A stretch of DNA of 64,000 bases, taken from Ceratodon purpureus. Lineage: Eukaryota > Streptophyta > Bryopsida > Pseudoditrichales > Ditrichaceae. Every line of letters begins with the position of its first letter. The stretch's first letter is position 1. The notes under the pieces were generated by a model, which searched no databases, had not been told where the DNA came from, and saw nothing but the letters and a program-made list of their open reading frames with translations. This document shows, one piece after another, positions 1-53,890 of the stretch. Where the stretch lies: the NCBI GenBank assembly GCA_014871385.1, contig CM026421.1, positions 16,289,048 to 16,353,047 of the forward strand, in the 5' to 3' direction. Position numbers and translations under genes: made by a program.

Positions 1-1836
1 TATTTATGTTTTCTTGAAATCGGATGCCGTCTAACGCCCTTGATATGTTGAACTAGGCCGAATGTGTTATTTGAACTATGTAGTCTTCACACTGGTTGAG
101 ACGAATATTGTTGGATTCTTGCTTGATGTGAAATGAGTCTGATTATTGGATCTGTACGACTGTAATGGGTTTTAGAGTTCTTAGGGGTTATGATGAGTCC
201 GAGTTGGTTTTCATATGATTGGTGGATTACATGATGGTTCTTAGGTGGTTGCCGAATAGACGATTTGGCTTAGACCTATGGACAGTTTGCACAAATTTCA
301 AAATGTAATCAGTGATGTGTTAGTGGGTTTAGTATTTGCAATGTAATGTGGCTGTGATTGATATACATATTATAATCGAGTTCTCTGAGTAAGTGCCAGA
401 TTATGTAAAATTGGAAAATGAGGCTGTTGAACTTGTATTAGTTTCGATCCTGCCGTTCTGTGACGAACGACTTAGATTAGCAATATATGATGTTCTTTGT
501 AAACCACAGATTGCATCGAGTTTTCATTAGATTGATCTTGAGTGTGCGTGTACAGTACATATCAGCGATGTCATGTCCGATTCTAGCACCATGTCTATGT
601 TCTTATGTCGCTTGTGGTCGGTTATATTAGAGTACTAATGGGCGTTCTGTGACGAACACATTAAGTTGCTTAATTCGATTGAGTACAAAGATATTGTTCA
701 TCAGGTACATCGATGATGCATTCTGCTTTATGTAATAGTAGATGCTGTTACATGCTTTATTGATTATGTTTATAATGCTTAATATGGAGCTCGTTACGTA
801 GTGTTATCATTGATATTGTCCTGGTTGATCGATAATCAATTCGTTCATAAAGAGTAGTTCTGTGACGAACATGCCAAACTAGCACAAACAGCCTTGTCTT
901 CTTGATTTACTGTTTCACTTTTTAGCATTGACTGAAAGTAACTGTTATATACATATCTGGTGCATCATTTTTAATTCGTATACTTTAGCTGAGTAAGTTT
1001 ATTGTTTTAATTGCGTTAGTTTGAAAATGTATTAGTTAGGGGTTGATCGTTCGGTGACGAACATGTCTATTACATTGACATGGCACTCCAGAATGTAACG
1101 GTCCATGATCAGTTTGTTTTAATTTGAAATGAACTCTAATTAACAAAGTTTTAGTGTTCTGCACAGATCACCCATACATGGGCCGATTTGAACTCATTGA
1201 TAAATAACTTAGTTAGTTTAGCTTTTGAGTATATCATCAAGAATTGGAATAGGCTTACCTGTTCTGTAACGAACACCACCAAGTGGCATGATTTGGTAGA
1301 TAATTAGATTCGACTCTGAACTACTTGATGTGAATTTAGAGTGTTCATAACTTGTAAAAAAAAGAGTGTTCGGTACAGATCACTACTTACTCAGTCAATT
1401 TAAAATTCTTTGATTTCATAATTATTTGAAATTACTTTCAAATATGATGGGTAATTGGCGTTCGGTGACGAACACCCTTAGGAGGCAGATTCTCAATGGA
1501 CTTAAGAGTTAAATATGTTCATTTGGATAATGAATGACATGTATTCATATTGCCATTTATACTTTGTTTTGTACAGTTCTCACATACCTACTTCATATAT
1601 TACTCATTTTGTTCATGTTATTGGACCTTTTAGTGATTATTTACATTATAATTAGCCAAATTGTTCAAAATGAGTCTTCGAATCAGCAATTTCCAAGATA
1701 GAATTACCGAGACCAATATCGTTCTGTACCGAACACCAGTTTATGTTGCGATGTTTTCTCATCAGCCGTTTTTATGGTGTTCGGTTTCAAACTCTGTTGC
1801 TGATATATTAAACTATTATTGCAGGTACAGAGTGCG
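1..1836. repeat. Upstream region with regularly spaced 14-bp palindromic boxes (block A)
   Basis: No convincing coding sequence is visible here. The region lies before the first coding exon of the ParB-methylase gene. An acceptor-like TTGCAG ending at 1824 suggests that part of it is a 5' UTR intron. It contains GTTCTGTGACGAAC or close variants at 455-468, 644-657, 857-870, 1049-1062 (GTTCGGTGACGAAC), 1261-1274 (GTTCTGTAACGAAC), 1460-1473 (GTTCGGTGACGAAC) and 1721-1734 (GTTCTGTACCGAAC). The steps are 189, 213, 192, 212, 199 and 261 bp. GCCGAAT half-sites near 55 and 250 would continue the same spacing to the left. Sequence between the boxes is largely unalike by eye. Confidence 0.8.
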
Positions 1837-4800
1837 ATGGCAACAGAAGGAAGTAACGATGTGGAGTGGGCGCCCTCTCCCTCACAAGGTCGGGAGAATG
1901 CTAACTTCTATATGCCTAATAATTTATGCTTTTCTGACCTAATGACTTTCTGACTATTGCATGTTCTGTGACGAACGGTTCTAAACCTCTCAATTTGTTT
2001 CTGTGGTCTGTAGCGAATCCAGATGATAATCATATCATGTTTGACTACTTGCGTGCGGAGGATCCACCAGCAGCCCAGGGGGGAGGTATTGTATTTGCTT
2101 TTAACTGATATATTAATTCACTTCCATCTTTCGGGTGCTGCGATTACAAGTTCAGAGAAATATTAAGTAACCAATCATCACTGTAATGATGCTTAGGTGC
2201 CCCTACCGGTGATGCGCCACTTGAAGATGCGCCACTTGAAGATGGCGATGGCGACCACATGCAGAGTCCGCTGCGTCAACCCCTACCTAACCCAGGTTCG
2301 GGCGTCCTTGGATATATTTTCTAAATTCTTCCGATGTTCCGTTCTGTGCCGAACGGACTAAGTGATTGCGATTTAGTAGCTTGAATGACATGATGATTAA
2401 TTAACCTGGTACTAAATATGAGCAATTGTTGTTATTTTCCAGATAGTGAAGACTCTGGCATGGAGGATCATTCAGACAATGAACAAGAGGAGGGTAATCA
2501 AAGTGATCCGGAGGAGCCAGATTTCCCCGAACGCATCGAAGATCAAGAAGACGAAGAAGATGATGTCCATTCGGGAGCAAGAGAAGGTGAAAAGGAACCG
2601 GCCCTGGACCCTAAGGAAGAATACGACATGATTGTAGCACATCGCAAGACACGTGTCAACTCCATCCAGATTCTCAAGAGGCTTGAGATGATACCGGCCG
2701 GCAAGTCTATGATTCATATCCCTTTATGCAGAATGCGTAAGCTTCAAGTAGTGCGACCTGCATTGGAGCACGACGTTGCTAAGATGCAAGCAGAGTTCTC
2801 ACATGGATACCGCGATGGTGCGGCGGTATTCTATGTCTCCACTACAAATTTTGAGGGCCAGGAGAAGTTGCTGACCGATGTCGAAAGAGCCAAGTGGAGT
2901 CCGAACTGGCGCATCAGGGATCAAGAATTCGAGGATTTCCTTAAGTCAGACCCTGATTTAGCTGTGCTTTCTAACAAGTTTTTTTATGTGTGGGATGGTA
3001 ACCATCGATTGGTGGCATGGTACGATTTCATTCGGAAGTCGCATAAGCAGGAGTTGGAGTGGCACTATAGGGTTCGGTCAATTGTGCTCCGCACTGCAGA
3101 CAGCGTAACCGATGTACTCACTGCTATGCATGATATAAACAAATCCAATGAGAACAGCCATGTCAAACAGAACCTTGTGCATACCCTGCATCGCATGCAA
3201 AAGGTTGGCATGCTCTCTCTGGATAAATTCAAGGATGTACTCACTGCTGAAGAATTGCAAGCTGCGAAGAAGCAACAAGAGGTTCCACTTGAGAAGAGAC
3301 CGTGGTATCCTCTCTCTCGTGCGAAGTTTCTGGACTACATACATAGTGTAAGTTTCACCATTATGTGACTTTCACCATAACCCAAAGAATTATTATGCTT
3401 ATTCTAATTATATTATTGCTGCCTGTTCAGCAAGATATTATGGAAGCTGGAGATGAGGCACAAAGGAAATATGAAGATGAGACTCCCCGAAAAAGACGAA
3501 CCGCAGATGGGCTCAATGCCGCCATAAACGGTGCCATGGAAGCGAAAAGAAAAGCTCTCACGGCTCCCTTCAACAAATTCTTGGCAATTGCGAATCCGGC
3601 AAATGGGAAACACTTCCTTCCCGAGGTAAATATTTCGACCCTTTATTTCAAATTTTTAAGATTTTATAGTAAGATAGTGCATCGGCCATGACAACCCTGT
3701 TCGGTGCCGAACGAGTCCTTCATCTATGCTTTATTATCAGGTGACTCTGGGGCACTATGTTCATTGAAATCCAACTGCAAGAACCATTCCGCGAATGGGT
3801 TATCTGTTGTAAGTCAGCTCTGGACTTAGATCGAAATAATATACGAGGTCAGAATTCGACTTACAAATCTGATTTTGGTATGGTCTATGTTCTGAATTGA
3901 TTGGGGTCGTAGATTTGATTTAAATGATTGTTATAAATCTTTGGCATATGTTCTTTCTTATTACCTTAATGTCAAGTAACCTCTACTATTATCGAATATA
4001 GTTCAGAACCTTGCAATTCGATGGCCCTAATGTCTAGTTTTAAAGTAAGTCATGTTTAGACCCTCAGAAGCGCACAATCAGATGATCTGGGCCGACCATA
4101 TTCTATCGGCCATGACAACCCTGTTCGGTGCCGAACGAGTCCTACATCTATGCTTTTGACTCTGGTGACTCTGGGGCATTATGTTCATTGAGATCATTGC
4201 TTAGAACCAACTGCAGGAACCATTCTGATTTTGCGAATGGGTTCTCTGTTGTAAGTCACCTCTGGACTAGTATCGCAGATATATACGAGGTCAGAGTTCC
4301 ACTTAAAAATCTGATTTTTAAGATGAACTGAACTGATTGGTGTCGAAGTTTTGATTTAAGTGATTGTTAGAAATCTGGGGCATATGTTAAAACCAATAAC
4401 CTTAATAAAAAGTAACCTCTAATGTTATCGAATATGAGTAAGTGATCGCCGATTTATGAATCATAATTGCGGATTTACGCCCGGCCTGGTTCATATAAAA
4501 TGCTCTAGTCTAATATAATGCAGGTTCGCTGGAATGCGATGTTCGGTGCCGAACGGGTTCAGTAGTGGTGATTTATGTTCAGTGACTTTGCATGACTATT
4601 GTGCTTTCTTTGTAGCTGCTATATGTGTGAACATGTTGTTTTTGATTTTTACTACATTGTCATTAAATGTTGACCATTGGATATCTGTGAATGCTTATTT
4701 GATGAATTAAGTGAGACATAATAACTGAGCATAGGATTAAGGAGTTATGGATTTAGTTCGGTGGCATTTCAAATATTGGTTGGGACTTCATCAGTTGATC

Positions 4801-7800
4801 TGTACCGAATGGGTTATGAGGAATTACTTTTAAATTAAATGAGCTACGCCGAAGCCAACACTGTTTGTTGAATTTGTTATTCTGCGCATTTCCGAACTAA
4901 ACAAATTGAATTCGATTACTTACTAATATGTGTATTTTATGATGGCAGATTGCGAAACATTGGTCTACAAATATTACACCGGAGATGACGACCGAGAAGC
5001 TTCAGAATTTAGCAGCTGCGTGCCTTCCAGCATCCGAGAAGGAGTACCTGCTGAAGCTGTGGAATTCAACGAAATCCGATCGCAAAATGAAGAAGTTTCC
5101 CATTTCTCCATTCAACGATCCGGTCTTCAACAACTATCTACACAAGTATGTATTCTGGTTTCAGCTTAAAGCTGCGTCATTGTCTTTGTACAATTCCATC
5201 ATGGAGCACTACCCGACTACCGAGAAAGTCTGCTCGCAGTCGTTTGAGAATTACATCGACTACCATCGAATCTACCAATGGGATTACGCGTTCAATATTC
5301 CCATCATGAAGAAGGAGATTAGTAAATCAGCTGAATGGGATACACCAAAGCAGGCGCATGGTGAGCCTGCAATGAACCGCCTAATATACAGGTAATTGTT
5401 GTAACTATTTCAATATTTTTGATTTCACTCTCTTAGAATTGCATTCGGTTCGATCCTCATTTGTTTAAAAAATTTCTTGGTTTCGAAGGTATTGGACACA
5501 CCTCCTGGAGAAAGAAGGAGTTGTCAAAGCACCGCATCCCTGCTTTGCATCCTGGCTGGATGTCCAGAATGCGGACACAATGTTCATGGCCGACCAGGCA
5601 AGGGACTGGTCAGAAGACCACCTCAATGCGTGCCACTGGTATATAGAAATGGATCCAGAGGAAACACCACCTCATCTTGTTGAGCTACGAAGGAGTGTTG
5701 AACCTGCTTTCCTCAAACCGGCAGCTGTTCATGCACAAGGAGTGGGAAAACCATCTGGCCACGATGTCGCACCTGGTCGGGCTCAAAAAGGCAAAGGAAA
5801 GTCAGGACATTTGGCTCCGGCAAAGGGACCCGAAAAGGCTTCAACTGGACGTGAGGTTGCACGTCAAAATAACAAGCGCAATGCTCCAAGTCCACCAGAA
5901 GAAGAGGAGGTCAACATTCCGAAACGGGGTAAACAAGGTGATAAAGAGCAAGATCAAGCCGAAACGAATGATCATCAGTCCGAGGCTAAATCATCAAGGT
6001 CCCAGTCGCATACAGGTCGGAGTTTTGGTGGAGGCCAGGGTTCGATTTTGAGGACATCGCTCATCAATCGAGCTCCTCCTGGAGTTGATTTTCACGAGCT
6101 AATTGTCAATAAGTCAGTATCGGATTTTCTTCAATCTGACACAGAGATCTTCCACGACTTTGCCAGAAAGGTATGTTAGTCAATTATGCTATGTGTGTGA
6201 ACTTAATATGTGGATGCCAAAATAAATTCTCGGATTTATGCATGTCAACTGCAATTGCTGTTCGGTGCCTACCAGTTCTAGCATAGTACTTATTTATTAA
6301 ACAAATTCGCTTTCTGCTATTGTATGAAGATTTTCTTGCAATTGTTTACTCTTTTCGTCATGTTCGTTATTAAATTCATGTGTTCTCTACATATGTTGAG
6401 CGTTAAATAATTGGACCATCACTATAATAATGAGCATCGTGAATAATTCTAGTCGGCTGGTTCAAGCTAGCCAATGAGAGTTCGGTGCCGAACAAGGTCA
6501 GTGGCTTCAATTCTGAGACAAGCTGCAATTCGACTGTTGAGACTTCATGCCGTTTATTTGTAGTAAATTAATTTCTCACTTATATAAGTTAGTTACTTAG
6601 ACCTCGCAGAAGTTGATTCGCGGTGCCTTGATTATATATTACAGATTATTGTCTTTGGAGATCTTAGTAATATATTTGACTTGCATTTGCAGTGTGGTGC
6701 CGAAAGGGGTTAGGAGTGATATTTTCTACTGGACCGAATTCGATTTATGTTATGTGTTAAGACATCTTTGTACATGTTTCTGGTCTCTGTCGTGTTAGTA
6801 AATTTAAACAGTTTGAATTTTTAGTTGGAGTCAATAGGGTTAAAATTCAGTTTGAATCGACTATCGCAAATGATGTTTTCTGAAATTCGGTGATTAAATA
6901 CAAAGTTTCTCGTTGAATGAGTTTAGTTAAGGTTGGTGCGCGGATTGAGTGAAACAGAAGTTTGAGTCATGCAAGAGGGCTGAGAAGACGTGTTCGGTGC
7001 CGAACGAGGTCAGTGGGGAGATATTAAGTTTAGGGAGTTCGCATTAATGCTGTGCGTTGTTCTTGGGCGACTGTGGGGGCTGGTAGAGAATTCTTTATCA
7101 TATTTGCTTTCTTTGCAAATTACTTTGTTTATGTTACTTAGTCTGCTGGTATCTACGATTTCATTTCAAGTGATTTCTATTTCAGGTCTGGGCAGGCTTG
7201 ATTTCAAATGTCATTCTGGGTTAAGACATTTATGTACAAGGATTCTTTGCTTCATTGGTCTGCTTGAGACTTGCCATATTCAGTTCGGTGCCGAACTTGT
7301 TTAGTGGGTTCAATGTGGTGAATTAGCTTCTTAGTTACTCAGTAACTTAGTTTCTGCGTAGTTTGAGTTGGTTCGCTTTTGTTTGCTGAAATTGGTTTGC
7401 TGTGTATTGATTTCATACTACCTTATTCGGCACAGTTCGAACTTCCTTGTTTTCCCTAAGAATATGACGAATCGGCTCTTCAGTTACTTCATGTAATATT
7501 GCATTTCTTGCTTTTATTTATTTTGAATAACATTTGTCTTCTGCATGTGCAGGCTCGCGGTATTGAGGAGAAATACATTGGTGGCAAAAGAGGAATGTTT
7601 CCATGTGCCGATTTAGTGATTCTGGACCAGCCATTCGATTCCATTGTATCGGGATTCGGTAACAGAGTTCCCCAGTGGAACTCATTGCCAAAAAATCCGA
7701 AGGAGTGGTATGCCACACGCTTCGATTTCGCATCCAGGTTCGTTCATGACGATGGGGGGATATTGATCCTCATGCCCACGGGTTTAAATTTTGAACTCAT

Positions 7801-8498
7801 GAGCTGGATGGAAAAATTCAGACTGAGGACTAAATGTGAGTGGTCGTGCCACCAATTCGAGCCCCTCACTCATCCTATGTATGATGACATGATGGTATGA
7901 CTCCACCTCCATGTGAATATTTTAGCATGCATACGATTCACAACTGTTTAGGGAGATTTTCATTTGTAGCAGCTACTTGAGATAGTCAAGCAAATCCGAA
8001 TGTCGTGCATTGTGAATGCTAACCAACCTGTTTTATTTTGATGTGTAGACCTACATGTTTTCGGCCTTGTTGTTGCTGAAGACCGGGGTGGCCACGGGTA
8101 AACCGGATTGGGAACGGTTACCGAAACCTTTGAAGCTGAATTCGGATCCTCTTCTAGTCAACACCCCAGAGGATCCTTTAAGGTTTCTAAGTCTAACTAA
8201 TGACGTACAGAAGCCCACGCTCGGTGCCGACTTGAAGCCACTCCGGGGACCACATGAGAAAAGTGACGTCTTCTTCCAAATCCTCATTGAGATGTGTTCG
8301 AAAGAGGGTGATTTGGTGGTGGACCTTAGCGCATCTACCGGCGCTTCTCTTCGCGCCTGCCGCGCTTCAGGCCGACATTTCTTTGGCATTGAAGAGGACT
8401 CTCACATTTACAACACCATCCTGGCGCCTATGTGTAAGGCACCCGAATCACCGAAGCCACGAAGGCGTAGGGGTATGGATGCTTCTATGAGCCCCTGA
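1837..8498 (+). CDS. ParB/sulfiredoxin-like and N4/N6 DNA-methylase-like fusion protein, nine exons
   Basis: The exons I infer are 1837-1888, 2014-2085, 2197-2295, 2443-3347, 3431-3625, 4949-5391, 5489-6170, 7553-7894 and 8049-8498. They total 3240 nt, are in phase throughout and have GT/AG borders, giving 1079 residues. The N-terminus is acidic and holds a 15-bp tandem repeat (APLED twice). A ParB/Srx-like domain spans about residues 160-300: IPLCRM, then WDGNHRLVAW near 258, like the GxxR signature of ParB proteins. A mixed region and a basic linker rich in K, Q and S follow. The C-terminal part resembles a beta-order amino-methylase: LVILDQPF near 838 in place of the usual DPPY, then GGILILMP, then VVDLSASTG near 1020 in place of the usual FxGxG. 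Such pairings are known from phages and bacteria. Methylase activity is uncertain because both key motifs deviate. I see no stop or frameshift. Confidence 0.72.
1963..7296. repeat. 14-bp palindromic boxes inside the introns of the ParB-methylase gene (block B)
   Basis: Copies lie at 1963-1976 (GTTCTGTGACGAAC), 2341-2354 (GTTCTGTGCCGAAC), 3699-3712, 4123-4136, 4541-4554, 6480-6493, 6992-7005 and 7283-7296. The last six are all exactly GTTCGGTGCCGAAC. Every copy falls in an intron as I reconstruct the gene and none in an exon. Degenerate or half copies occur near 4800, 6260, 6690 and 7425. The first intron copies resemble the upstream block, while later introns carry the homogeneous GGTGCC form. 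Confidence 0.85.
3680..4440 (+). repeat. Direct duplication of about 424 bp within intron 5
   Basis: Two diverged copies, about 3680-4005 and 4104-4435, can be aligned by eye. Shared landmarks include ATCGGCCATGACAACCCTG with the 14-bp box (3699 and 4123), GACTCTGGGGCA, CTCTGGACT, ATACGAGGTCAGA and the TTATCGAATAT end. The duplication doubles the palindromic box. Confidence 0.75.
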
Positions 8499-9140
8499 TA
8501 TTAATTCGAATTTGTTAGTGCATTCAGGAACTCTCTAATTTCTGTAGAAATGGTTCACTTGAACCTTTTCAAGAAGCTTTACAATTTCAAGAGTCTCACA
8601 TCCTTATTATTTCCAACTTTGTCCTCTGTGTACTATTGTATATTCGGTCCTTTGCAGGTCATTATGGTTTCTGCAGACCATTTTTCGTAGATCCAGACTT
8701 CTTCCGAAGTCCATCTCCGACATACTCCCTTCCTTCTCCAGTTGCGGCGCTGGCTTGTGTAATGGCTGAGCAAGAGTCACCGGACGTCAAATCTAATACC
8801 TCTGCTGAATACCATAGAGGAAATATGTATGTGGACACGGAAGCTGCCGAATCTTTATCCGAAGATAGAACAGTAGACATGGTTGGTGAGGAGTCATCTG
8901 GAGAAAGCTTTATGTCAACTTGATGTCACCGAATTAGAAGGCATTAGCTCTGATATGCAAACAATTTGCATCAACCCAAAAAGCAAGTACCTAATATATT
9001 GTAATCCGAATCATCCCCAAAAAATAGAGATCGGTTTAGCTATTCTTTACACTATAATGCATGCTGTTTTCGACATTAAGATAGTTCATTCTAGTTGCGC
9101 ACTGTTTTGGTTCGCTTGACATGGTGTTCTTTATGCGGTT
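8499..9140 (+). other. 3' flank of the ParB-methylase gene; possible UTR or alternative last exon
   Basis: After the stop at 8498 there is an AG acceptor-like site near 8656-8658. An open stretch follows with its first ATG at 8763. It encodes about 53 acidic residues starting MAEQESPDV and ending ESFMST. It could be an alternative C-terminus, 3' UTR sequence, or chance. No known domain is recognised. Confidence 0.25.
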
Positions 9141-11115
9141 GGGCAAAGTCTGGTTTAATGTACTTTAAGCCACGTAAATGCAACAAGTTTCATCCCGGAT
9201 GATTAAAAGATAACTCAGATCATGGAGACAGGCACATCACCCTAGTTCGATAGCGTATTTGATCCTGAAATGATATGATGCCCCCTTCTGCGCTCTGGTC
9301 CCCCTGCCCAGCTGCTCCAAAAAAAACAAAAAAGAAGAAATGAAATGATAATGATATTGGGTAAATTGGAGAATCCGACTTATAACTAATGTTTTATAAC
9401 TACCTGTTTATAAAGAATCTGCCAATGCAAGCGCTTCGTACCACGAAGGTTGTATTAAAGCTCAGTAACACTAAAAGCCTGCGACATTCTCAATGCAGTG
9501 CAGTCTGGGGGCCTGTAAAATGCCCATTTTTTTTAGGATTTCGGAGACACTACTTACGTGATACCTAGGTGGTGTACCCGGATGATACCAAGGTGATGTA
9601 TGAGGTTGAGAATTGGGTGCTGTATGCAATGAGATTTAGAGAGCCCAGTTTCAAAAACTTAGAATCATGAATGTCGAACTGAATATCTGCCCTCTTGGAA
9701 AAATTGATTCTTTCCAATGGACTTGAATTCGGAAAAAAAAATAAAAATGTCTTACGTGGATTAATGATTCATGAACAAGGGTTTATCAATAAACTGATTA
9801 TTCATTTTAGAGAATTATTATTTCATAGAATATTTATTATTCCTGGAGTCTATACTTTTATTAATCTATTAATAGAGAAAATCTAATAAGCAGTTCTCTT
9901 AATTATTAACATTTTGAATGAATATTTAGTTATTTTTCTCCTTTTCAATTCAATGATAAATCTATTAATACAATTTTCTTATTGTATTCATAACCATCTA
10001 TTAAAAAAAATAAAAAATAGAAGTACATAAAACAAACGTTCATTATAATTAAATACAAAATTATCTAAAAATATACTTATAGTCTAAAATATATAAATAA
10101 ATTATTATATATCTAAATTTATATAAGTATATATATATACAAATATTATGTATATCTGTAATCATATGTTCATGATTATATATTAATAATCGGTATATAT
10201 TAAATATAATATCATTATATATAAATATCCGTCTATTTATATTTATGTCATTATAAATAATTTAATACATATTTTAAAATGTATTTTTTACTTTACTTTA
10301 TCTTCATATATAATTATCAAATTATAATTTAAAATAAAAAAAATATAGCTTAGTATTTATATATTTAAATCTTAAAGTACATGAAGTAGTATTATTTATT
10401 TATATTTTAAAGTAAATGAAATCAACTATTACTACATGTAGCCATATTTTTTAAGTTATTTAGATAAATATGAATATATGTTTCTCTATGTTTATACAGA
10501 ATAATATAAATTATTATGACATAGTTATACCTTTAAATATCTATAAATTTGATATTTATATATAATTTTACCTTTATAAAATATATTCATTTATGTATGT
10601 CATAACATCAAATCAAATCAAACAGATGTCATAACATCAATTGATGCCAAATAGATATAATTAATAAATAAACTATGTAAAGAATTATTCTCTATATATA
10701 TATATTCTGAAGTATAAGAATTACATATATATAATTAATCATATATGTAATAATTATTTTATACAATACATATATAATATTTTCAAGGTACATATATATA
10801 ATAAATAATATATGTAATACTTATAATTCATGTCAAATAAATCCTAAATTCTTAAAAAATAACATATTCAAAGAATTATTCTATAATGTATATAAATTTT
10901 TTAAGTAATATATTTGAATTTTACATATACATAGCACACTTAATTTATTAATTATATATAAGAATATTTATATATCTAGTTGTACCTTTTTTATGTATTT
11001 TAAATACACCTTTCACATCTTTTTTATTAAACATATGTTTATATAAATATCTTTAATTTATTGTATATACATGTTCATATATATGTATTTATAAATTATA
11101 CCTTTGATATACACT

Positions 11116-11199
<84 letters not shown>

Positions 11200-11545
11200 C
11201 ACATTTAATAATAATTATATATATACATTGAAAATATTATATATGAACTTTTTTTGTTTTTAAATAACTAAGTTATATATCCATTTAAAAAAATATATAT
11301 TAATGCATATATGAATATCTATTTAGATACTTATATAGATATTATACAATGTTATTTATAAATACATGTATTTATATTCAACGTCTACACTAACGTAGAT
11401 AATGTTTATAAGATTTATTTGTATAAAATATAATCTTTATTTTGTATATAAAATTATAACAAACGTATACGTTTATGAAATATCCTTATATTTTATAAAA
11501 CAAGTATAAATATTATTAATCAATATTTATGTATTTAAATAAATT

Positions 11546-11625
<80 letters not shown>

Positions 11626-12545
11626 TATCTATATATTTTATTATTTTTATATTCGTAAACATATACGGTTGCCACTTTAATTCATAAAGCTTATCTGTCT
11701 ATAATATGTATAATTAATATTTTATTTGAATTCGTTAAATCAAAGAAACTTGTGGAGTAATCTTCATTTCTACTTTGTACTAAAGATTTATTTTTTGAAG
11801 TATAATAACCATGCAAAATTATTGGAAATAATTAAAATATAGAATTTTTTAAATAACATAAATGGATTTAAAATATAGTTTATTTTAATAATAACAAATT
11901 GGAGATATATTTAATGAGTTATATATGTTCGTGTATATTTATATATGTTTTTTTTTAAATAAGAGTAGTTATAATGTATTTAGCCTATAATTCATTTTAT
12001 ATGCTTTAAAGATATATAATGAACATTTAAATCTCACTTTAGCTTGCAAGTCTATTATATTTATAATTAATATTTTAATTTAATTCACAAACTAAATCTT
12101 GTGGTAGTATAAAAAAGAATCTTGTGGTTTAATATTTATTGCTACGCATGTATAGAAATAATGTCAAAGTTTTTAGATTGAAATAAATTAAGATTTGCAG
12201 GTGTTGATATTTTTAGTCTATTTGTAGTTTTGATATTTTTAGTTTATAATTCATTTTCTAAACGATAGAAGATTATTTGAACTAAAATAACATCTTGTAG
12301 CTATATTTATCACGGACATTGTCAATGAGTTTTACAACAGCTCCTAATGCCTATGCCGCATGCATTTGCTCTAAGGTTTCCAGTGGCTTTGATGCATTTA
12401 GCGGGAGAAATTAGACAGTGAGGAGGTACGTTGCCTAATGCATACTCATGCAAACACTTAATGAACAAAGCCACTATTCTGTGACTATAAAGATATATCT
12501 GTATATTTAAAGTACTATATATTAATACTCATATTTATATATAAC

Positions 12546-12594
<49 letters not shown>

Positions 12595-13980
12595 AGTGGC
12601 AATTAAATAAGTGCTCCTCGTACCAATGATTGATCTGGTAACGTGAAAACATGGTGTCTTGATTATCATAATTCAGCCAAGATGCAAAACTTGAGTGCGC
12701 CTGAGGCACTACTTGCTCTTTCTGCAAGACATCAGTGGAATACCTCAAATGAATAGATTAGTTAGAAATCAATGCATCGGATAATGGAATCACAAAAATA
12801 AGCAAAAGATTTAAATGATGGATACTTGTAAATTAATCGATCATGGCTGGCTCTTTATGAGCCTACTTTGCCCATTGGACGTATTTTGATATCTCTTTGT
12901 TCAAGATAGGGATTTTAAATGCCGAGTCCCACTGACAGATCCGGTGATTTCATCGATGTAGGCTGCGAGATTATATTTAAGTTTTATATTAAATTAATTA
13001 TATAATCAATGTTAATTTTTGGCATTTAGAAATTGATGCAAATCGATGTGATCTCTGTAGAGACGCGACTAGCAAAAGTTCATATTTATAGTCTATTTGT
13101 AGTTTTGATTTTTTTAGTCAATAATTCATTTTCCAAATGATAAAAAAATAATTTTAACTAAAATAACATCTTGTAGCATTGGCATCACAAACATTGTCAA
13201 TGAGTTTTACAACAACTCCTAAGGCCCATGCCGCATGCATTTGCTCTAAGGTTTCCACTGGCTTTGGTTTTCAGTGGAATCGTCTCCTGTCTCTCGAGAT
13301 CCTGCTTGTGAGATTTGTGAGACAGCTCTGTGAGATTCACAGATAAACTATATTAAAATAACCTCGAAATTTATGGTCTTGGAATACCCTTGTCCATTGT
13401 GCAGATGCTTTCTTTATCCACATCCGTGCCATGTCCTTTGAATCCTTAGGATCATCAATAAAGTGTATTCCAAGTATTCACTCAACACTACGCTTTGAGT
13501 AAACTTTGACTTCATCAAATGAAGCGACTTCATGCGAGTAAAGCAATCACGATAGTATACCATATCTGATTGAAGTTCAAGATGAAACTCCATATGTGAA
13601 GACAACGATTTTATACACATATAGATGAAGAATTGGGTAAATGCTTTTAAATATATAACATAATAAACAAAATATAATATATTTGTAAAGTATTTATATA
13701 TATTTAAGTTATTATAATACATATATGAGTTTAACACATTGGTAAAAAAAAAGATAATGTATGATAAAATTGAAATGTTAAATATTTATATAGTTAATTC
13801 ATTTTGCTACTTATTTATCATTCAACAAAAGGTTTTTTTTTTTAACTAATTCATACGTTTTTTTTAATAAAAAAATTAATTAACAATAAATATCATAATT
13901 TTATTGTACATTAAATGATTTAGGAACGAATAATTAATCATTTATCATTATACATACATGTATAAATAAATTAAGCCATT
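9141..13980. repeat. Very AT-rich desert with (TA)n microsatellites
   Basis: The stretch is dominated by A and T, with long TA runs at about 11,119-11,215, 11,549-11,630 and 12,547-12,590. No gene is supported. A 63-codon open frame at 9695-9886 is AT-rich and unrecognised. Less AT-rich islands at 12,300-12,480 and 13,190-13,560 include the repeated segment listed separately. Confidence 0.8.
12208..13270 (+). repeat. Diverged direct repeat pair (about 185 bp per copy)
   Basis: The segments at about 12,208-12,395 and 13,085-13,268 match closely. Both run from TCTATTTGTAGTTTTGAT through AACTAAAATAACATCTTGTAG, ATTGTCAATGAGTTTTACAAC and GCCGCATGCATTTGCTC to GGTTTCCA. They are about 875 bp apart in the same orientation. 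No coding sense is apparent. They may be remnants of a mobile element or of a local duplication. Confidence 0.75.
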
Positions 13981-14103
13981 CAAATGTACATTAATAAAAA
14001 AAAATCTTATATGTATATACGAACATTATGTACTTACATTAATTCGTTGTATTATGTTTTGGACCTCTTGAACGAACGCCTATTTTTTGATGTACGGCGT
14101 TCA

Positions 14104-14212
14104 TATAAGAAGAGAAACATCCATTCTGTACCGAACATCCATTACCAGCCCCGAGGATTCGGATGTTCCGATTGTAGTCCTGGCTGTGAATGGTGGTGAT
14201 GATCGCGAGATA
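14104..14212 (+). other. Isolated exon-like island next to a 14-bp box
   Basis: Within AT-rich sequence there is a short GC-richer stretch with an acceptor-like CCAG (14,146-14,149), an open frame of about 22 codons reading PEDSDVPIVVLAVNGGDD and a donor-like AAG|GTATTA near 14,218. The box ATTCTGTACCGAAC lies just upstream (14,123-14,136). It could be a leftover exon of a gene related to the palindrome-bearing locus, or chance. Confidence 0.25.
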
Positions 14213-14219
14213 CAGAAGG

Positions 14220-15073
14220 TATTATTATTCAAATATCTTAGAATAATATGAAAAAAATATATAATATTATCATTGATAAAAATATTAAAAAATTAACAGT
14301 TAAAATTCACTAATAATAAACAACTATAAAATCATATATCAAATCTTGTGACCGCACAAGAACGAGACTTGTGGTGTAAAAATTATTGATTCATAATATT
14401 ATAAATTTTCATCGACTACAATTATAATAAGAAAAGAATGTACAGCCATCGTTTATATATAATTTCAAATAATATTTTTAAAATAATATCTATATATAAT
14501 TTCAAATAATCTAATTAAATGCATACAACAATGCATTACAATATTCAAATATTCATTATATTAGTGTTTCATCATTTTATGATTATTTGTATTCAATTAT
14601 GCTATGATAATATATTCCAAAGTCTTTTCTAATATGATTTTAATTAAATGTTAAAAAATGAAAAAAAAACTTACATCTATATACATTAATTTTTAGAAAT
14701 AAATATAAATATAATATTAAACAATATTAATATACTTTTAAAATATATAATTCTTTTTATTAAACAATTGTATATTTAAATGATTTTATATAAATAAACA
14801 TATTTATAAGTATTATGTACATATATATCCATATTATATTTGTTATATAAATATGTGTATATAAAAATACATTTAAATCTCAAATATGTTTATTCATTTA
14901 TAATTAAATTTATAAATATTTATCTTTATATATTCAATTAGTTATAAGAAGCATATAAAAAAACAAATGATTCCTAAACCCTACAATTTTCTATATTGAT
15001 ATACATATTAAATTGTTCATTTATGAATTATATATACATAGATAGATTAATAAATAAATATGTTTCTCTTTAA

Positions 15074-15114
<41 letters not shown>

Positions 15115-15540
15115 TTAATATTGACTATGTATTTATATATATATATAAATAATTAAAAATATATTTGTTTATATATATACATGTATATATATGAGAATGA
15201 ATTTGTATTTTGATATAAATAAACTTTAGACAACTGTAAATCTTTTTCGGCCACTATATGTAAACTAATTTGTAATTTATATTTTAAATTAATTTGCATT
15301 TTCTTTTTTAATGTACAGCAACTGTTTGAATTTCTAAATATTTATATAAATATATATATATAAAATTTTTTATTTTTTATTTGGTAATGTATTTCCTTTT
15401 CAACTGCATTATACTAAATGAAACATACCATCTAATATGAAACATACCTTAAACCATTTAGTAACTTGAATTTGAGCAATACCGAAATGGAGAATATATA
15501 ATTATTTTTTTTCGAAAATAAATTTTAAATGTATCTTATA
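14220..15540. other. AT-rich spacer without genes
   Basis: Low-complexity AT sequence with a (TA)n run at about 15,077-15,108. No open frame, palindromic box or RNA gene is supported. Confidence 0.75.
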
Positions 15541-15558
15541 AATTAGAAACCTCACAAG

Positions 15559-16493
15559 CCGTTCGGCACGAACACCATCCATCAGACCTAATTAAAACTA
15601 TGATCACAAATAAATCCTCAAAAAAGATTTTGGTAAATAAATTGGTGCCTTGGACGGCGTTCTGTACAGAACAGGGTGTTTAGCCCAAATTAATTTCTTT
15701 ATCTTGGTGGTTCTCGAATTGGTCATGTTGGTGGCGTTCGGTACCGAACGACAAGTGCCCAACTGATTTACCCCCTTCTTTGTTGTAATATAAAGTGGCT
15801 CTAAGTTCGAAGTACATAACTATCTGACATCTTGATTAGGATTAAGTTGTCTGAACTAAAATCCCATCTCAAGATGAAATCTCACCTAAGAACCCCGTTC
15901 GGCACCGAACAGGAAATTTGAGATCACCTGCATGACTCTAAATTCTGCTGCTAGAATTTCTCCAAACCGAAGGTCAATCCGAGAACTGAATTGATATAAA
16001 ATCTATTGAGTTTTCAAGTGGGGCATCCATACTCGTTCGGCACAGAACGATGTTTGACCATAATTATTCATAGGGTCAACCAAATATTTAGAGGCCGAAT
16101 TCTTCCACAGAGTGGCCTTTGAGCTTCGACCATTCAAACAGGAGTCTGGGTCTCCTGCGTTATTGCTTTCGAGTTCTGAGTCCCCATTCTATGTTTTCAA
16201 GTTAGGATCAATTATCCTCTACCTAGTGCTTCGTTGCCGAACGGGTCAGCAACTCCTGATTTAAGTTTTATTTTCTGTTATTCAATTACAGTTACCACGT
16301 TCCGTCTAATGTTACTTTATGCAAACATTACCCTTAGACCTGTTTTGCAATATGTAGTCTAAGTCTATGCTAACTTAGTTTTTTCATATCTTGGTATTTT
16401 TTAAAATACATCATAGTATGAGTTCAGATGTACGGCAATGCAAAAATGATCAATTACATTGTATACTGTCTTCACCTAGGTTCGGTGCCGAAC
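15559..16493. repeat. Dense cluster of 14-bp palindromic boxes (block C)
   Basis: Copies are at 15,561-15,573 (GTTCGGCACGAAC, 13 bp), 15,659-15,672 (GTTCTGTACAGAAC, a perfect palindrome), 15,736-15,749 (GTTCGGTACCGAAC, a perfect palindrome), 15,897-15,910 (GTTCGGCACCGAAC), 16,035-16,048 (GTTCGGCACAGAAC), 16,229-16,242 (CTTCGTTGCCGAAC, diverged) and 16,480-16,493 (GTTCGGTGCCGAAC). The steps are 77-251 bp. The block lies beyond the 3' end of the minus-strand RING-like gene. I see no coding sequence in it. Confidence 0.85.
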
Positions 16494-16939
16494 AGGTGAG
16501 TAGCTCTCAATTTAGAATCCGTTTTTTGATCAGTTTTTTGATCCGCAGTGAGTCTGTTTCAGCTCACATTCCAAGTCATCGCAATATCAAGATATATGGA
16601 ATTTTCATTCCATGCAAGGTAAAAGGTCTCTGCCCCTAGTAGTTCAAATCCCCTACCAGTTTCTCAATGTATTCTTCGACATTAGCCATAAACTATCATA
16701 TGTGAACCTTAAACCATTGTTTTGTTTAACTCCATCTTCAAGTAGTTTTGAAATTGACTAAAATGTCATTTCACACAGACGCTGAATCAACTGACTGAAC
16801 TGTAATTCAACCTGCAGATGACAAGCAAACGATATATTCAGTACCATGTTAATCATTTCCCATATTACTATACTCTGTAATTTCAATCAGTTTTGATTAT
16901 CTACTTACCAGTGTAGCCCTTGCTCATTTAGTATCTTCT

Positions 16940-18285
16940 TCATTTTTTCTTCTTTTTCGAAAAGTTCACCCCACCAATATCTGAATTCGTATGTTTACGC
17001 TTCCTTCTTATCTCTTGACTTTCTCTTGGTGGCTTCTCAAAATAATACTCTGTGTATTCAAAGGTTCAGACTCTGTTAGAAGCAAACAAAGAAATGGAAT
17101 CAATTCAGACCATCTCTACCATTATGTTTTCAATTCAATCAAATAAAGATGGTTGACTGTAGAATTACCTGGTAGTTTGTCGAGGCCGAGGCTTTTTTTC
17201 CAACGGTCGTTGAATTTCTCTCTGCACTCCCTGTCGGCACATTCATCTTCTAGCATGCATTGCATGACTACACACCACGGGTGGTACGTGCAATGGCATG
17301 GTGCTACAATTATATCCATCTGACTGAAGGAGGAATCACACAGTGCACATTGTTTAACTTGCAACTGGAAATTTCTCCGACCAGAGTGATCTCCATCAAC
17401 ATGGTGACTTGTATGCAAGGTGAAGGGAACATGGAGTAACTTAGCCATTTTATCCAGTTTCGATCTGATTCGATCTGATTTGTGTTGTAGGTCCTCCATG
17501 ACTGCTTGAAGTCTTCGTAGCTCTTCCATAGCTTCAGTTATCTCTCCTTTAGTGTCCACCAGGGCAATCTCCTTCTTCTTAATCCTGTACCTCAGAGTTA
17601 TGATGCGGTCTTCCTTTCTCTTTCTTTCTTGCTCATGCTGCTCACTATCCTCCATGTTTTCCAGAGCCCCCTCCGAATCATGCAATTTCTCCCGCAGCCT
17701 AGAAATTGTTTTCATGATTTTCTGAGCTTCATCTCCAGATGCTGGATTCTTTGGCTTTGACATCACGGAGTGTATGAAGATATGGCGATCGCTATGGTCA
17801 GCCTCTACCTCGCTATGCAGAAGTTCTGATTTTGCTAAATCAGCTTCTAGTTTCGACTTCACAAACCCATAGTAGGATTCCTTGGAAACATGAGCTTTAT
17901 ACTTGATTACTGGCTCCTTCTTCTTGGATTTACTTCTTTTTGCCCTCCATCTATCCTCAGCATATAGAGCCCAATTCATAGGGAACCCATGACACACCTC
18001 TGATAATACTGCTCTAGCAAAAGACTCAGGGATACACTGATGTTTTGGCATCTTCGTAGATTGGAAAAGGGCTGGAAATAATTCGTCTATCCGCTCTCTA
18101 ACTCTTGTAGACTTCGCATTTGGATAGAAATATCCTATCCTCTTCTTTCTCTCACCAAACATGTTTTCCAATTCTGAATTGTCCACATGGTTGCAATCCC
18201 TGGATGGATCCAGCCCCCAGTTGGGTAAAGAAACCTCCGTTGCAAACCATTCCTCCCTTCCTCTCTTTAATTTAACCCTCTCCAT
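16940..18285 (-). CDS. Coiled-coil protein with RING-like Cys/His cluster, two or more exons
   Basis: The main exon runs from 18,285 (ATG of MERVKLKRG) to 17,169. The last exon, 17,049-16,940, begins after an ACACAG acceptor and ends with a lysine tail (FSKKKKK). Together they give 1227 nt, in phase, about 408 residues. An acceptor-like GTACAG just upstream (near 18,315) suggests a further 5' exon. The middle is a long charged helix (about residues 190-300, heptad-like). Near residues 310-360 lies CALC, then APCHCTYHPWC, then CADREC, a treble-clef or RING-like pattern of the kind seen in ubiquitin ligases. The tail RRKRKH plus KKKKK could be a nuclear localisation signal. Whether it binds zinc or ubiquitin machinery is unknown. 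It stands next to block C of the palindromes, so it may belong to the same unit. Confidence 0.55.
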
Positions 18286-18359
18286 CACTGACCAACTAGA
18301 CTGTTGATCCGATCCTGTACATAACATAATCATACAAATTTCAGGGGATAATCGCACAA

Positions 18360-21300
18360 AGTCTCACCAATTCATAAGCATAATATAATTAACCCTTACG
18401 ATGAACAATACCAAAACAAACTTAGTACAATATTGATATACGCACCTTTAAGATGCAATCAAACAAGTTCTACTTTAATTGAATTCTAGAGATTGTACCG
18501 GATGTGGATTGCCACGAATGCTGATAGAACAGGGCCCACGCAGTTGCTCTTTATCAATAATCGGTAATTAAAATCAGCCTGAAAACAAGCACACTAATAA
18601 TGTTAGTCATGTTAGTGTTAATAATCTCTGTAAAAGTCCTCTCAAATCTTTCGAGATAGTTATCTCATTGCCTACGAGTTGGTACAGCTCAAAACTCAAC
18701 ACTTGGTCAAACTCAAAACTGTTATCGCATGGCCTTAACACCCGACAAATAGTTTGCGACTAAATTCTGTTCTGAACTCTTTCCACGTTCTCTTCAGTAA
18801 ACAGGCATTACATAAAGCAAGAGACTCAAATATATAATGACAAGGAAATGACTTCCCAAATCGTAATGGAGCAATCAGTTGCAGAAATGGAAATCACATG
18901 CAAGAGACCTGGTGTAAATCACAGTAAAGGTAAAGCAGCAAACTGATCACTCCTCAAAAGATCAATGCTTTGTACACAATAGTAGAATAGGAATGAAATA
19001 AAATAATAATCTGTATTAATTAGTTGCCGTGGTGATCTTGCAGGTAACCTCGCCCGAAGCAATTCTCAAGACTCGAAACAGGCCCAAAACATGACCCACA
19101 CGTACGCAAACTCCACAAAACCGGCAGCGGACCATGGAAAACGGCAGCCCAAAGCCGCAAATCAGCATAACACTGACCCCAAATTCCCAGGAAGAAATTG
19201 TAGAGGAGGAATAGCTTGGACTGTCGATGACCTTGCCGAACAAAATAAGCAGAGGGCACTAAAATAAAACACTCTACTGTAGATGTTCAAGAGGAATACA
19301 ATCATGAAGCAATCTAAGAAAAATATCATAAGAAAAAAAACTCATACTCCGGTGCATCGTTCTTGCTCCAATTCTTCGGCAGGTCAACCACAAAGCCTCC
19401 TTCATATGTAACGGTGTCAGATGTTACGGTATACCGTGGCTCCTGCTCCGTAGAGCTGTACAGATCAAATATACACATATACACGTGAATTATTTTGCAA
19501 TCAGCTACATTGCTACCCATGAAGCTAACATAAGTACCGCACTTAGAATTCACAATATCAGCTCACTTTACTACAAACAACTTCCGGAAACCCTTACCCA
19601 CTGTGTTGCAATTCGATGTGTCTAACTGAATACATAACCATGAGCGATGAGAGAACACTGACCTCTGTCGAGATGGGCCATATGAATGAGCAAAAATGTG
19701 ATATGCATACCGCGTGGTTTTTTGCCATGGCTTGCAAAAGCCATATCCGTGTTTGAACCTAATTTACCTGGCCATGGCTTGCAAATGACTTCCTCTGTTT
19801 TATGAGCCGTTTTTCTGAACCTAAGCTTTCCATTCCTAATGATTTAATTTGACACCTGGGAGTACTGATCATCATTTTATTTGATGTTTGCTTTGTGGAT
19901 TTTCAAATTGTTCATTCATTTTGGATGAGTTCATTGTCATTGATGAATGAAATACATTTACTAAAAAAAGTAAGTCATCCGCTCACGGCTCATGGAATCT
20001 CGCTCACGGCACATGGCTCACGGCTCATCGCTCATGTCCTAGCATTCCCCTGGAATGGCCCGGTCACTTGCAAGTATGGAAGATGGGAGCTTTGTGTGCA
20101 ATTTTGGGAATTTTTGCAAGTCTTGAAGACTTGGAAGGAGTTTGATGAACTTGAGCTTATTTGTTTCATGAAGTGTTCTAAATTTAAGAGTCTGTAGTTT
20201 TTGGACATTTTATGAATGTTTTACCAAATGTTTTTTGTGATTGATGTTTGAATAGGGGAAAATCAACTAGGAATACTTTCTTTTCATCATAAATGGATGA
20301 CATAGTTTAAGATGAGATAATTAAATGTGTTATTTTTTAGTTGTGTTAAAGAAATTAAGTTTTCTTTAAAAAACTATATAATATTTAAATTTCTTTTATT
20401 TGAAAAATTTGTGTGTTCATAAAAAAATATGAATGCATTTTAAAATATGCATTGTTTCAAAATACACACAAAAATATGTATAAAATTTTACAATGGGAAA
20501 TTTTTAAATCTTATTTTTTTTAATAAATTTAAAAGAAATCATGAATGTAGAATGTGAAAATGTACAAAAACTATATATAATGTAGATCTTGTCAAAAAAA
20601 ATACATGACAAATAACTAATGAATTTTAAGTGACGCAAAGTAAACAACTTTTTAAAATAGTAAGAAAGATTGCATGTTTTGGAAAGACAAATATGTTGGA
20701 TTTTATGGAGGGTTTCTTGTGGAAACGTTTCTAAATTGATTGAAAATGTGGATTTGGTTTTTTTAAGATAATATAATTACATCCAGAAACACATACTCCT
20801 CTGAAGATTTAAGTGCCACTAAACCGCAGAGAAAAACGCCGAAAAGTACACAAACTACATCAAAACTAGACGGAAATTCTGTAAACCAATCCAGAGAAGC
20901 AAAGAAACAAGTCGCCATGCTTTGCAGAGTTTTGCATCTCCCTTCAGGCATCCCTGTATACCGTAGTACACTACACCGGGCAGTAGTTGAAGGGAATGCC
21001 CAAGGGGAGATGCAAAATACTATGCTAGAAGTAAGTAGCTAACCTGGAGAAGCTTATCAAAGGACGTGAGTTTTCTGCAGTAGTATTCATCTGGATGCCG
21101 ACATGCAACAGGCATTGTCCCATTCAGTTTACGGTGTGCATGCGCAGTGACCGCACCTGTTATGGCTAGAGGAGTTCTTCACACCACACAGGAAAATACA
21201 AGACAACAAATTTTTCAACAAACTATAACAACAAATTTTGTAATGTAACACAATCGTGTCCATGATTAAAGTATGCTAATAACTAAATATTAGTGCATGT

Positions 21301-50134: not shown

Positions 50135-51912
50135 ATAAATAAAATTAAAAAAATAAGAATTAAAATTTATTTGGATGAAATAAATTGATAAAATTGTGCA
50201 AATTTGAATGATTAGATATTTTGAGATTAATGTATTAATAACTATTGTTGTGCATGTCTAAAATCAGGATTGATTTCATAAAAGATATTATCTCTCGTAA
50301 TCAGTGTTTTTGAAATATGTTAATTTCTAGTTCACATATATTAGAGTTCTTTGGAAAGTCATCCAATATTTGACTTGAATACTCATGAGTTTTGATTAAA
50401 CATAATTTTATTTGTTCATTGTATAAAGGATGTAAACATTTGAAGAGCTTGGTGGTCTCTTCCTATTGGATGTTTAAGAGCTTGGTGATCTCCAAATTCA
50501 AATAATACTAGTTTTTGAATAAATGAAATGATGGCAAAATTAATTTTACTTGATTTTAGAAACCACTAAGTTTTACATACTGAATATAGTGAGACCACCA
50601 AGATCTTCCATGCCTCCTATCTATTTGGAGTAAGAAATAGTGATACAATAAAATAATTTATCTTTTATCTTTTAGAAAACCCAAGGTGGCTTTAAAGATA
50701 AATTTGTTGCATGATTTTTGTATAGTTGAGTTATAAGGAAACAAATTATGAAGATGTAGAATTATAAAGGCTGTCCCTTGCATCCCATTCTAAATGATAG
50801 ACTTTGAATATAATTTTGTTTTCCAAATTATATGATGAAACTTATTGTTTTTTCAAATTTAAATTATTATTTTACATATTCTACTGTAATAGAAATTGGT
50901 AAGAGTTGTAGAAAAGTGCCTTCTATTCATCAGTGGGTGTTTTGATCTCCCGCACAGCCGATCGTGCAGCCATCCCAGTTGGACACAGGAGGGTTTTCTC
51001 TGGGAGCGGAGTCTGGATCCCTGTTGCATCACCATCTCCTCATCGTACTGACACTCCTAGTAAGTGAAATATTAGAAGTCTAGCTCCGTCTGCTGCTATT
51101 TGATCTGTTTGAGCTAGAGAGACGCCGTTGCTGAAGAGATTAGGGGTTACGTGTTCGCGAGCCAGCTACAGTTGTCTGTACATCAAAATCAAAAGGTGAA
51201 CGTCTTGCTGTTGGACTTCGAGGTTCGTCGAGCGAATGTTTGGTAGCGCATCGGTATAGGTTTATTTTGGGTCCTGAATGGTTCCTCATTCGCAGTTCAT
51301 ATCAAGACTAGAATGTTGACGACAGGAAATTGGGGTACGCCGAGAATATATATTTTACATTGTGTGATTTTGTGTCATTTCTGTTTTTTAAAATTGCTGC
51401 TTGTGTCCTCAGTGCTATATTGCGGCTACTTGTCAAGTCCGGCATCCGCTGCACTAAGGTTGGGGTTTAAGTGCTCTACAGCTGGTTTAGAGACGGAGAA
51501 TCTTATACACTCCCGCAAAAAGATGGGTTATAGTCTTCATCAGAATGAGCTGTATAGACTGGGGCATGGGAATGAGATATTTGTGTTTGAAGGAATCAGC
51601 AATATTTTTTATTTGTTCGATTCCTTAAAGGCTTAATCACGTTAATGACGGTCGCTTCGTGTGCAATACCGATCACCCGTTTAGTTGTGGATTAAGTGAC
51701 GGAGTGATGGCGGATGGCGGATGCAGTGTTGGTTTCTGTGTACCTGGTCAAGGACATGTAACGAACAAGTTTTGGTGGTCGAAAATGATAATTTCCTAGT
51801 ATTGATAGTGCTAATACCAACGATAATGTATGATGTCTTAAGCAGGATAACGATTTGCCACAGCCTCGTTGCTGGGAGAATGTGACGACTGGTTTTGGTG
51901 CTTTCATGCAAC
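50135..51912. other. Spacer and likely 5' region of the kinase gene
   Basis: The first 750 bp are AT-rich. From 50,930 the sequence is GC-richer and may include a 5' exon, since a donor-like TAGTAAGTG occurs at about 51,059. A 107-codon open frame at 51,313-51,636 is not recognised and has a poor composition. Confidence 0.4.
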
Positions 51913-52905: not shown

Positions 52906-53614
52906 AGGAGCAAGGTGATCACATCCATAATCTCCGATTCCAATCTGCAAGGACGGTTTAGGCCATCGACTTTTGCCCTAGAATTTCGATGAGTTTTCAG
53001 CTGAACTGTGTAGAAGATTGCGTTTAACTCAGTCCTGTAAGTGCGTGCAGCTATTAATAATATGTAAAATCTGTCTGATTAAAATAAGGTCTGTCCTTGG
53101 TGGTGTGTAAATTACCTCCTATGAATTTTTCTAAAGAGGTGTGTGCAAGCTTTAACTTTACATTAGACGTTCTTGTGAGAGCATGTTTGTGCTAAGTTTT
53201 TTTGCTTGAAGGCATTTGTTTGTGCCAAAGATCTTTGAAAGATATTATTTCTTTTAATGTAATTTGACCTTTCAATAATTCATTTCAATAAGGAATATAT
53301 GTTCTCACATTTCACCTACTAATAGATCATATCTTCATGATCAGTCCTTTTATGATTTAGACCATTTCAAATTAAAAATTATCAAATTTCTTTAGAGCAA
53401 GGCAGACAAAAATAAGGCATGCACATTAAGAGAATCAAGATAGAATGTATATTTTGCAAGCAATTCTACAAATGTACTACACAATCCAAAATCATTGTAT
53501 ACAGTAGTAAGTTTAAGATTTTATTCATCTTTTTCTTGTCAAGATAGAATATATATACTCTGCAAGCAAATCTACTAATGTACTATATAATCCATATTCA
53601 TAGAAACACACCAC
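52906..53614. other. 3' flank of the kinase gene
   Basis: AT-rich and non-coding. There are two similar tracts (TCTGCAAGCAAATCTACTAATGTACTA-like) at about 53,453-53,480 and 53,560-53,590, a diverged short duplication. Confidence 0.4.
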
Positions 53615-53890
53615 AGTTGTGGTGTAGTGGTTTGAATCATGGCACACCGGTGAAGTGGTTGTGAGTTCAAATCCCAATGCCTATGTCGTGCCTACTACCA
53701 TAGTCCACCGACTATGATAGGGGGTCTCGAGACCTCGTTGTATAAGTACCCCAAAAAATAGACCTTGAGGGGATAACATGTCGGTTGTCTTCAAGACACT
53801 TACCGTAGAAAAGTGTTTACCTTCTGTAGAAAAGTGTTTACCTTTCGAAAGGGGTCCAGTGGCCATCGGATTAATGAATAGAACGAACAA
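53615..53890 (+). mobile_element. tRNA-derived SINE candidate
   Basis: The head resembles a tRNA: GTGGTGTAGTGGTTTG near 53,618-53,633 fits an A box and GAGTTCAAATCCC near 53,662-53,674 fits a B box, about 40 nt apart, as in a tRNA. A non-tRNA body follows to about 53,890 with a duplicated AGAAAAGTGTTTACCTT unit. There is no 3' CCA-type acceptor pairing, so it is not a functional tRNA gene. The 3' end and the target-site duplication are not certain. Confidence 0.5.

Follow-up and report, generated by a model that had tools for sequence, protein, structure and literature searches.

What is a gene that appears to join a ParB-like domain to a DNA amino-methylase doing in the nuclear genome of a moss? 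The question is raised by a stretch of 64,000 nucleotides of Ceratodon purpureus, here termed the window, which corresponds to C1:16289048-16353047 of genome G000 (362 Mb in 151 contigs). We find that the gene, here called gene B, almost certainly belongs to a large family of DNA transposons of this species, in which it is conserved and accompanied by a transposase-like gene (gene A), by a third gene (gene C) and by arrays of a short palindrome. The coordinates of all these features are collected in Table 1.

The evidence for this comes from the ends of the element and from its copies. The left terminus is situated 7.2 kb ahead of the window, and exact target-site duplications abut both ends in all six elements for which two ends were read (9 bp in four of them and 10 bp in two), with terminal inverted repeats of 43 bp at 86% identity in the window element and of 51 bp at 82% in another copy, C4a. 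Genome-wide, and allowing up to two mismatches, the left terminus was found at 94 sites, 68 of them exact (one for the control), and the right terminus at 87 (none for the control). Six other neighbourhoods, picked from clusters of the palindrome and accounting for 12 of the 13 loci fetched (the thirteenth being L045, the left flank of the window), are collinear with the window; five of them reach the common right terminus and the sixth, copy C7, ends beyond the stretch that was fetched. The exons of P0001 (M758_1G295400) and P0002 (KC19_7G101700), two Ceratodon proteins related to gene B, yielded 59 and 113 genome matches, respectively, which merge within 40 kb into at least 54 gene-B loci, a minimum, since scoring was confined to the best candidates. 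Pairing termini on one strand at less than 70 kb gave 60 intervals, and a gene-B match is present in 35 of the 36 that span 22.8-33.9 kb, in six of the seven longer ones and in none of the 17 below 20 kb. These 17 form a shorter size class, mostly of 14-18 kb, with the common termini (for instance G000:C7:5821597-5837063). Paired termini enclose 41 of the 54 gene-B loci, the other 13 falling outside, and 27 of 31 ParB-like exons start 8.4-10.7 kb inside a left terminus on the same strand; three more start 26, 31 and 41 kb inside one, and the last has no terminus nearby. The most similar pairs of copies differ by a synonymous distance (dS) of 0.006, which makes them very recent, and the family is apparently a large plant DNA transposon that has been active recently. 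No description of the element was found in the literature, searched at the level of titles and the starts of abstracts.

Conserved arrays of a 14-bp imperfect palindrome, GTTC-N6-GAAC, are nearly confined to these elements. Across seven stretches (two whole elements and five partial ones of 18-20 kb) 108 instances were counted, 6-23 per stretch, where shuffled sequences predict 0.15-0.40 each; ten patterns run as controls, with other palindromes, spacers changed to 5 or 7 or arms swapped, gave 0-2 per stretch, and 29.9 kb of flanking DNA held a single instance. Only one of the 108 falls in a gene-B tblastn match (window position 2341, where intron 3 is read through), and in the two elements that were read over their full length the sites are concentrated in gene-B introns and spacers, away from the termini. 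Identity between copies over 234 aligned instances is 96.2% in the arms, 92.0% in the core and 77.5% in the 60-bp flanks, a descriptive figure, since the instances were chosen to be intact in one copy and every pair counts in both directions. For one form, GTTCGGTGCCGAAC, the genome holds 125 exact sites, compared with five for the same letters read backwards, and among the matches listed 90 of 100 lie within the 60 paired intervals, which make up 0.44% of the genome; the other ten are in part near gene-B loci without paired ends. The exact palindrome is also held by at least four of the 17 elements below 20 kb. By eye, the 701 bases of L136, which belong to another element, show six sites with an N6 spacer and one with N5. 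Palindrome triplets with spacings of about 107 and 115 bp occur at G000:C2:4061633-4066799, C5:13960648-13965811 and C7:6531471-6536050, twice each, 4.4-4.9 kb apart and within paired termini.

Gene B is under strong purifying selection. Its ParB-like exon is free of stops in all 27 distinct copies cut out, a set that leans to intact copies because the best-scoring ones were taken, and shows a median ratio of nonsynonymous (dN) to synonymous distance of 0.058 (101 of 351 pairs, those with dS of 0.05-1.5). The two methylase exons give dN/dS values of 0.032 (7 of 21 pairs) and 0.055 (8 of 21), two exons from the middle of the gene 0.068 (20 of 21) and 0.148 (19 of 21), and gene C a median of 0.24 (20 of 21 pairs). 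A single pair was available for gene A, with dN 0.025 and dS 0.172 for one of its open reading frames (ORFs) and dN 0.003 and dS 0.062 for the other. Damaged copies of gene B are also present, with stops in several genome matches, a part of which come from reading through introns.

The gene itself had been modelled in the first-pass annotation as nine exons that join in phase, and this model holds: all borders are GT..AG, phase is kept throughout and the product is exactly 1079 aa. The ATG at 1837, which had been taken as the start, is an unlikely one, given that residues 1-59 of P0001 match L045 8680-8847 at 68% and that a candidate first exon, L045 8680-8838 with the donor CAG/GTGAGT, joins in phase to an exon starting at 1825. 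The full gene is thus predicted to comprise ten exons and 1136 aa (53+4+1079), its first exon lying 1.3 kb ahead of the window and positions 1-1824 falling within intron 1. The exon borders recur in the six other neighbourhoods, although in copy C7 the ParB-like exon is absent from the stretch read. The earlier reading of an intact, intron-rich nuclear moss gene is borne out; contamination, like a single-copy gene, is ruled out by the at least 54 loci. The closest protein found is P0001, which matches residues 130-1079 with 77% identity over 100%, followed by P0002 (57% over 70%), the model of which starts within the fifth exon of the window gene and which has its own genomic match at C8:9595594-9597817 (94-99%). 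No relatives beyond these two were found in a collection of 5.8 billion sequences, in a word-based search limited to relatives of 0.55-1.75 times the query length and, in the run that found P0001, to 8000 scored candidates, so that other plants are not thereby excluded. In databases gene B has so far been filed as a hypothetical or methylase protein.

The pairing of a ParB domain with a methylase, as first proposed for gene B, stands for its methylase half. The window protein scores 27.5 bits against PF01555 (N6_N4_Mtase), above the Pfam cut-off of 26.7, and P0001 and P0002 reach 30.4 (profile positions 2-217 of 221) and 35.0 bits. Aligned with hhalign to 63 phage ParB-methylases, which were gathered starting from the IMG/VR protein L010, the methylase region gives a probability of 94 and an E of 1e-7 over 66 columns around motif I, compared with a probability of 0.28 for the reversed alignment. 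Motif IV stands before motif I, in agreement with the beta order originally assigned to this domain. The catalytic motif IV of amino-methylases is (D/N/S)PP(Y/F/W) and their S-adenosylmethionine (SAM)-binding motif I is of the FxGxG type; all nine sequences compared have D[QT]P[FY] at motif IV, where the phage relative L010 has DCPY together with a canonical motif I. L010 also resembles gene B in its order, with a ParB-looking N-terminus and a methylase C-terminus. A phage origin was considered, but no donor is named, the similarity of P0002 to phage methylases being weak (best E 2e-4 among the best 30 of 237 records).

For the N-terminal half, ParB/Srx homology is plausible as judged from sequence but unproven. 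A GNHRL motif is present within WDGNHRLVAW, encoded at 2991-3020, and DndB, which has been assigned to the ParB superfamily (PMC10853773), matches the stretch holding WDGNHR in two of seven copies (E 0.011 and 0.027). These matches are weak and stand beside other weak ones, the same scan having given E2F_TDP in three of the seven copies (E 0.064). With hhalign, the region and the ParB part of the phage proteins align at a probability of 3 over 16 columns at a GxHR-like motif, which does not exceed the 3.8 over 5 columns of a mismatched control, the same region and the phage methylase. A profile search of the PDB with this region returned two galectin entries (best E 1.8) and nothing significant, tblastn of the region against phages no match at E up to 10, and PF02195 no match over the whole genome, compared with matches in 10 of 14 control genomes.

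Table 1. Coordinates of the element and of its features (window positions, unless L045, the left flank of the window, or a genome contig is named).
Feature	Position	Strand	Basis
Whole element, 27,249 bp, first 7,199 bases before the window	G000:C1:16281849-16309097		Shared termini, inverted repeats, duplications
Element portion within the window	1..20050	+	Termini, inverted repeats, duplications in related copies
Right terminus (inverted repeat), reading GGGGAATGCTAGGACATGAGC on the minus strand	20030..20050	-	Present in five other copies
Target-site duplication TGGAATGGCC, right copy	20051..20060	.	Exact 10-bp repeat; left copy abuts the left terminus in L045
Gene B, exons 2-10 (first of these 1825-1888, rest as in the nine-exon model)	1825..8498	+	Splicing, homologue P0001, conserved borders
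Gene B, nine exons of the first model	1837-1888, 2014-2085, 2197-2295, 2443-3347, 3431-3625, 4949-5391, 5489-6170, 7553-7894, 8049-8498	+	GT..AG, in phase
Gene B, ParB/Srx-like region (1079-aa model, residues 130-376)	2607..3347	+	Stop-free in 27/27 copies; homology unproven
N6_N4 methylase domain of gene B	7553..8498 (exons 7553-7894 + 8049-8498)	+	Pfam PF01555 above cut-off; hhalign
Motif IV, D-Q-P-F	7625..7636	+	D[QT]P[FY] in nine sequences compared
Motif I region, DLSASTG replacing the FxGxG type	8322..8342	+	DL[SA]ASTG in nine sequences compared
Seven palindromes, intron 1	455, 644, 857, 1049, 1261, 1460, 1721 (455..1734)	.	Pattern count
Eight palindromes, later gene B introns	1963, 2341, 3699, 4123, 4541, 6480, 6992, 7283 (1963..7296)	.	
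Five palindromes between genes B and C	15659, 15736, 15897, 16035, 16480 (15659..16493)	.	
Gene A (transposase-like), two ORFs	L045 7890-5359 and 4771-3251	-	Identity with copy C4a
Main exon of gene C (388 aa), coiled coil, with a C-terminal part that is rich in Cys/His by eye	17125..18288	-	Conserved in copies
Antisense fragment, 44% to gene B residues 547-639	12593..12946	-	Comparison of neighbourhoods

The transposon is probably of the Mutator-like (MULE) kind, a placement made mainly because of the length of its duplications and its inverted repeats. Terminal inverted repeats are usual in MULEs, if not universal, and their DDE transposases often carry a SWIM zinc finger. The two ORFs of gene A, which are 95% and 99% identical in C4a (the sole other copy with the left part fetched), yield weak hints of this type, with IS256 at E 0.027, SWIM at E 0.54 and, in one of 28 relatives of gene A, Transposase_mut at a weak E of 0.18. 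By eye, a C-x2-H follows the second conserved Asp, which we take to be a MULE hallmark. Gene A has 95 relatives in the protein collection, mostly without a source name and none named MULE. The duplications of 9-10 bp fall within the 8-11 bp described for MULEs (PMC6446971).

From these features we infer a function for gene B. The complete proposal, namely that a MULE-like transposon encodes in gene B a self-recognising protein that binds or modifies DNA and works like the anti-silencing protein VANC, seems to us evenly poised, and we hold more tentatively to its narrower part, that gene B acts on the palindromes to counter silencing. A dimeric reader is implied, because two-fold symmetric sites are kept while their surroundings drift; it would be an element-encoded protein, most likely the product of gene B, which is the first candidate because of its methylase domain and its low dN/dS. 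Such a reader might bind the palindromes or methylate adenine or cytosine there, marking the noncoding DNA of its own element, and this mark could, by analogy with VANC, shield the element from silencing or ready it for transposition. In its most specific form, that of a bacterial or phage-type ParB-methylase adding N6-methyladenine (6mA) or N4-methylcytosine (4mC) to its own GTTC-N6-GAAC as a self mark against silencing, that is, modification without restriction, the proposal is improbable.

Several observations speak against a self-recognising gene B in a MULE. The palindromes could equally be read by gene A, as the transposase, or by gene C, and the short elements that keep the palindrome without a gene-B match mean that gene B is not needed in cis; they may be passengers served in trans. 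An FxGxG-type motif I was looked for in nine sequences and found in none, all of them having a degenerate DL[SA]ASTG; ParB models in Pfam, PHROGs and NCBIfam matched neither the single proteins nor the seven copies scanned; and curated MULE families gave no significant match to the gene A transposase.

Transposons with accessory genes that handle DNA marks are already known, and the moss element would be a variant of that kind. In Arabidopsis, VANC21 binds arrays of YAGTATTAY in VANDAL21, including the introns of VANB21 and VANC21 and the DNA upstream of VANA21 (PMC5735166). Like VANDAL elements, the moss transposon is a plant DNA transposon of several genes, with an accessory gene besides the transposase and a short motif that has built up in introns and elsewhere in the noncoding DNA (PMC5735166, PMC10398659); the VANC motifs, however, are described as arrays in one orientation (PMC5735166), whereas the moss site is an imperfect palindrome, and the moss candidate has a methylase domain; the likeness drawn here is one of element layout. 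Fungal transposons with TET/JBP dioxygenases have likewise captured a DNA-modification enzyme, which is thought to aid escape from silencing, but there 5-methylcytosine is oxidised, in contrast to the amino-methylase-like domain seen here, and the abstract of that report mentions no conserved palindrome array (PMC12730594). Bacterial and phage ParB-methylases, such as Bce_0392 of Bacillus cereus (PMC5512222) and L010, share the N-terminal ParB or ParB-like part and the C-terminal N6_N4 methylase; as described, they are of about 400 aa, lack introns and have a canonical motif I, whereas the predicted moss protein has 1136 aa, some 440 residues between the two parts and a ParB homology that is unproven. 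Finally, N4CMT of bdelloid rotifers is, by its description, also a bacterial-type amino-methylase in a eukaryotic nuclear genome (PMC8885841), but the moss gene is multi-copy and transposon-borne.

Other explanations of the locus have to be weighed against this proposal. The first-pass annotation saw in it a single gene of bacterial or phage origin that the moss captured long ago and has retained for functions of the host. The gene is indeed intact, intron-rich and conserved, as such a history would have it, but a single acquisition kept for the plant is contradicted by the at least 54 loci, mostly within a large DNA transposon, by the inverted repeats and target duplications and by the fixed place of the gene within the element, and we consider this view scarcely credible, even if a single copy might still serve the host. 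Selection for the spread of the transposon is the simpler explanation of the conservation of gene B.

Within the transposon, gene B might be an accessory factor of transposition, the palindromes being sites of transposition assembly or transposase control and the methylase a DNA-binding pseudo-enzyme. Repeated internal binding sites are used by many transposons, and the degenerate motif I and the spread of palindromes across the noncoding DNA of the element fit this explanation, which nevertheless seems unlikely: in the two complete elements the sites cluster within gene-B introns and spacers, at some distance from the termini, and the methylase exons are constrained as much as any part of the gene, even if constraint does not prove catalysis. 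Alternatively, the reader of the palindromes could be a host transcription factor or the product of gene A or gene C, leaving gene B as an active amino-methylase of some other DNA, RNA or protein substrate. Nothing beyond the shared element ties gene B to the palindromes, gene C encodes a coiled-coil, Cys/His-rich protein, and the palindrome persists in at least four of the 17 short elements, which have no gene-B match. A host factor, on the other hand, should not have its sites almost restricted to a single transposon family, which is where nine tenths of the matches listed lie, and we regard this division of roles as quite unlikely.

The remainder of the element holds further features. Gene C was found in all six other neighbourhoods at 69-73% identity, with matches of the coiled-coil type. 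The antisense fragment in the middle of the element is a remnant of a second, diverged copy of gene B. The middle itself (10001-15700) is very AT-rich, with 14% GC at 10-12 kb and long AT repeats, and includes, at 12192 and 13067, a pair of similar blocks of 87 bp that lie 875 bp apart. When the window element is compared with C4a, DNA identity is 90% over the left 6.7 kb with gene A, 80-81% in the gene B exons and 78% in gene C, and the higher identity of the left part may perhaps reflect an exchange of parts between elements. Beyond the element, an ORF at 44800-45798 matches DUF4218 (E 3.4e-34) within a series of ORFs, at about 41-49 kb, which resembles a CACTA/tnp2-type transposon. A protein kinase ORF lies at 51886-52902 and a second, kinase-like by eye, at 57795-58799, followed by a weak NB-ARC match below the cut-off at 60082-60813 (E 0.0071); the same region (51886-62186) includes a leucine-rich-looking stretch with a 138-bp tandem repeat at 61622-61947.

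The locus thus reveals a multi-copy moss transposon family that combines in one sequence a methylase-like accessory gene with the sites it is likely to target. The idea that the two are connected can be tested directly, since the prediction names an explicit site and both 6mA and 4mC are detected by long-read sequencing. Should gene B indeed act on the palindromes, the family would represent a further route, beside those of VANC and TET/JBP, by which transposons manage their own marks.

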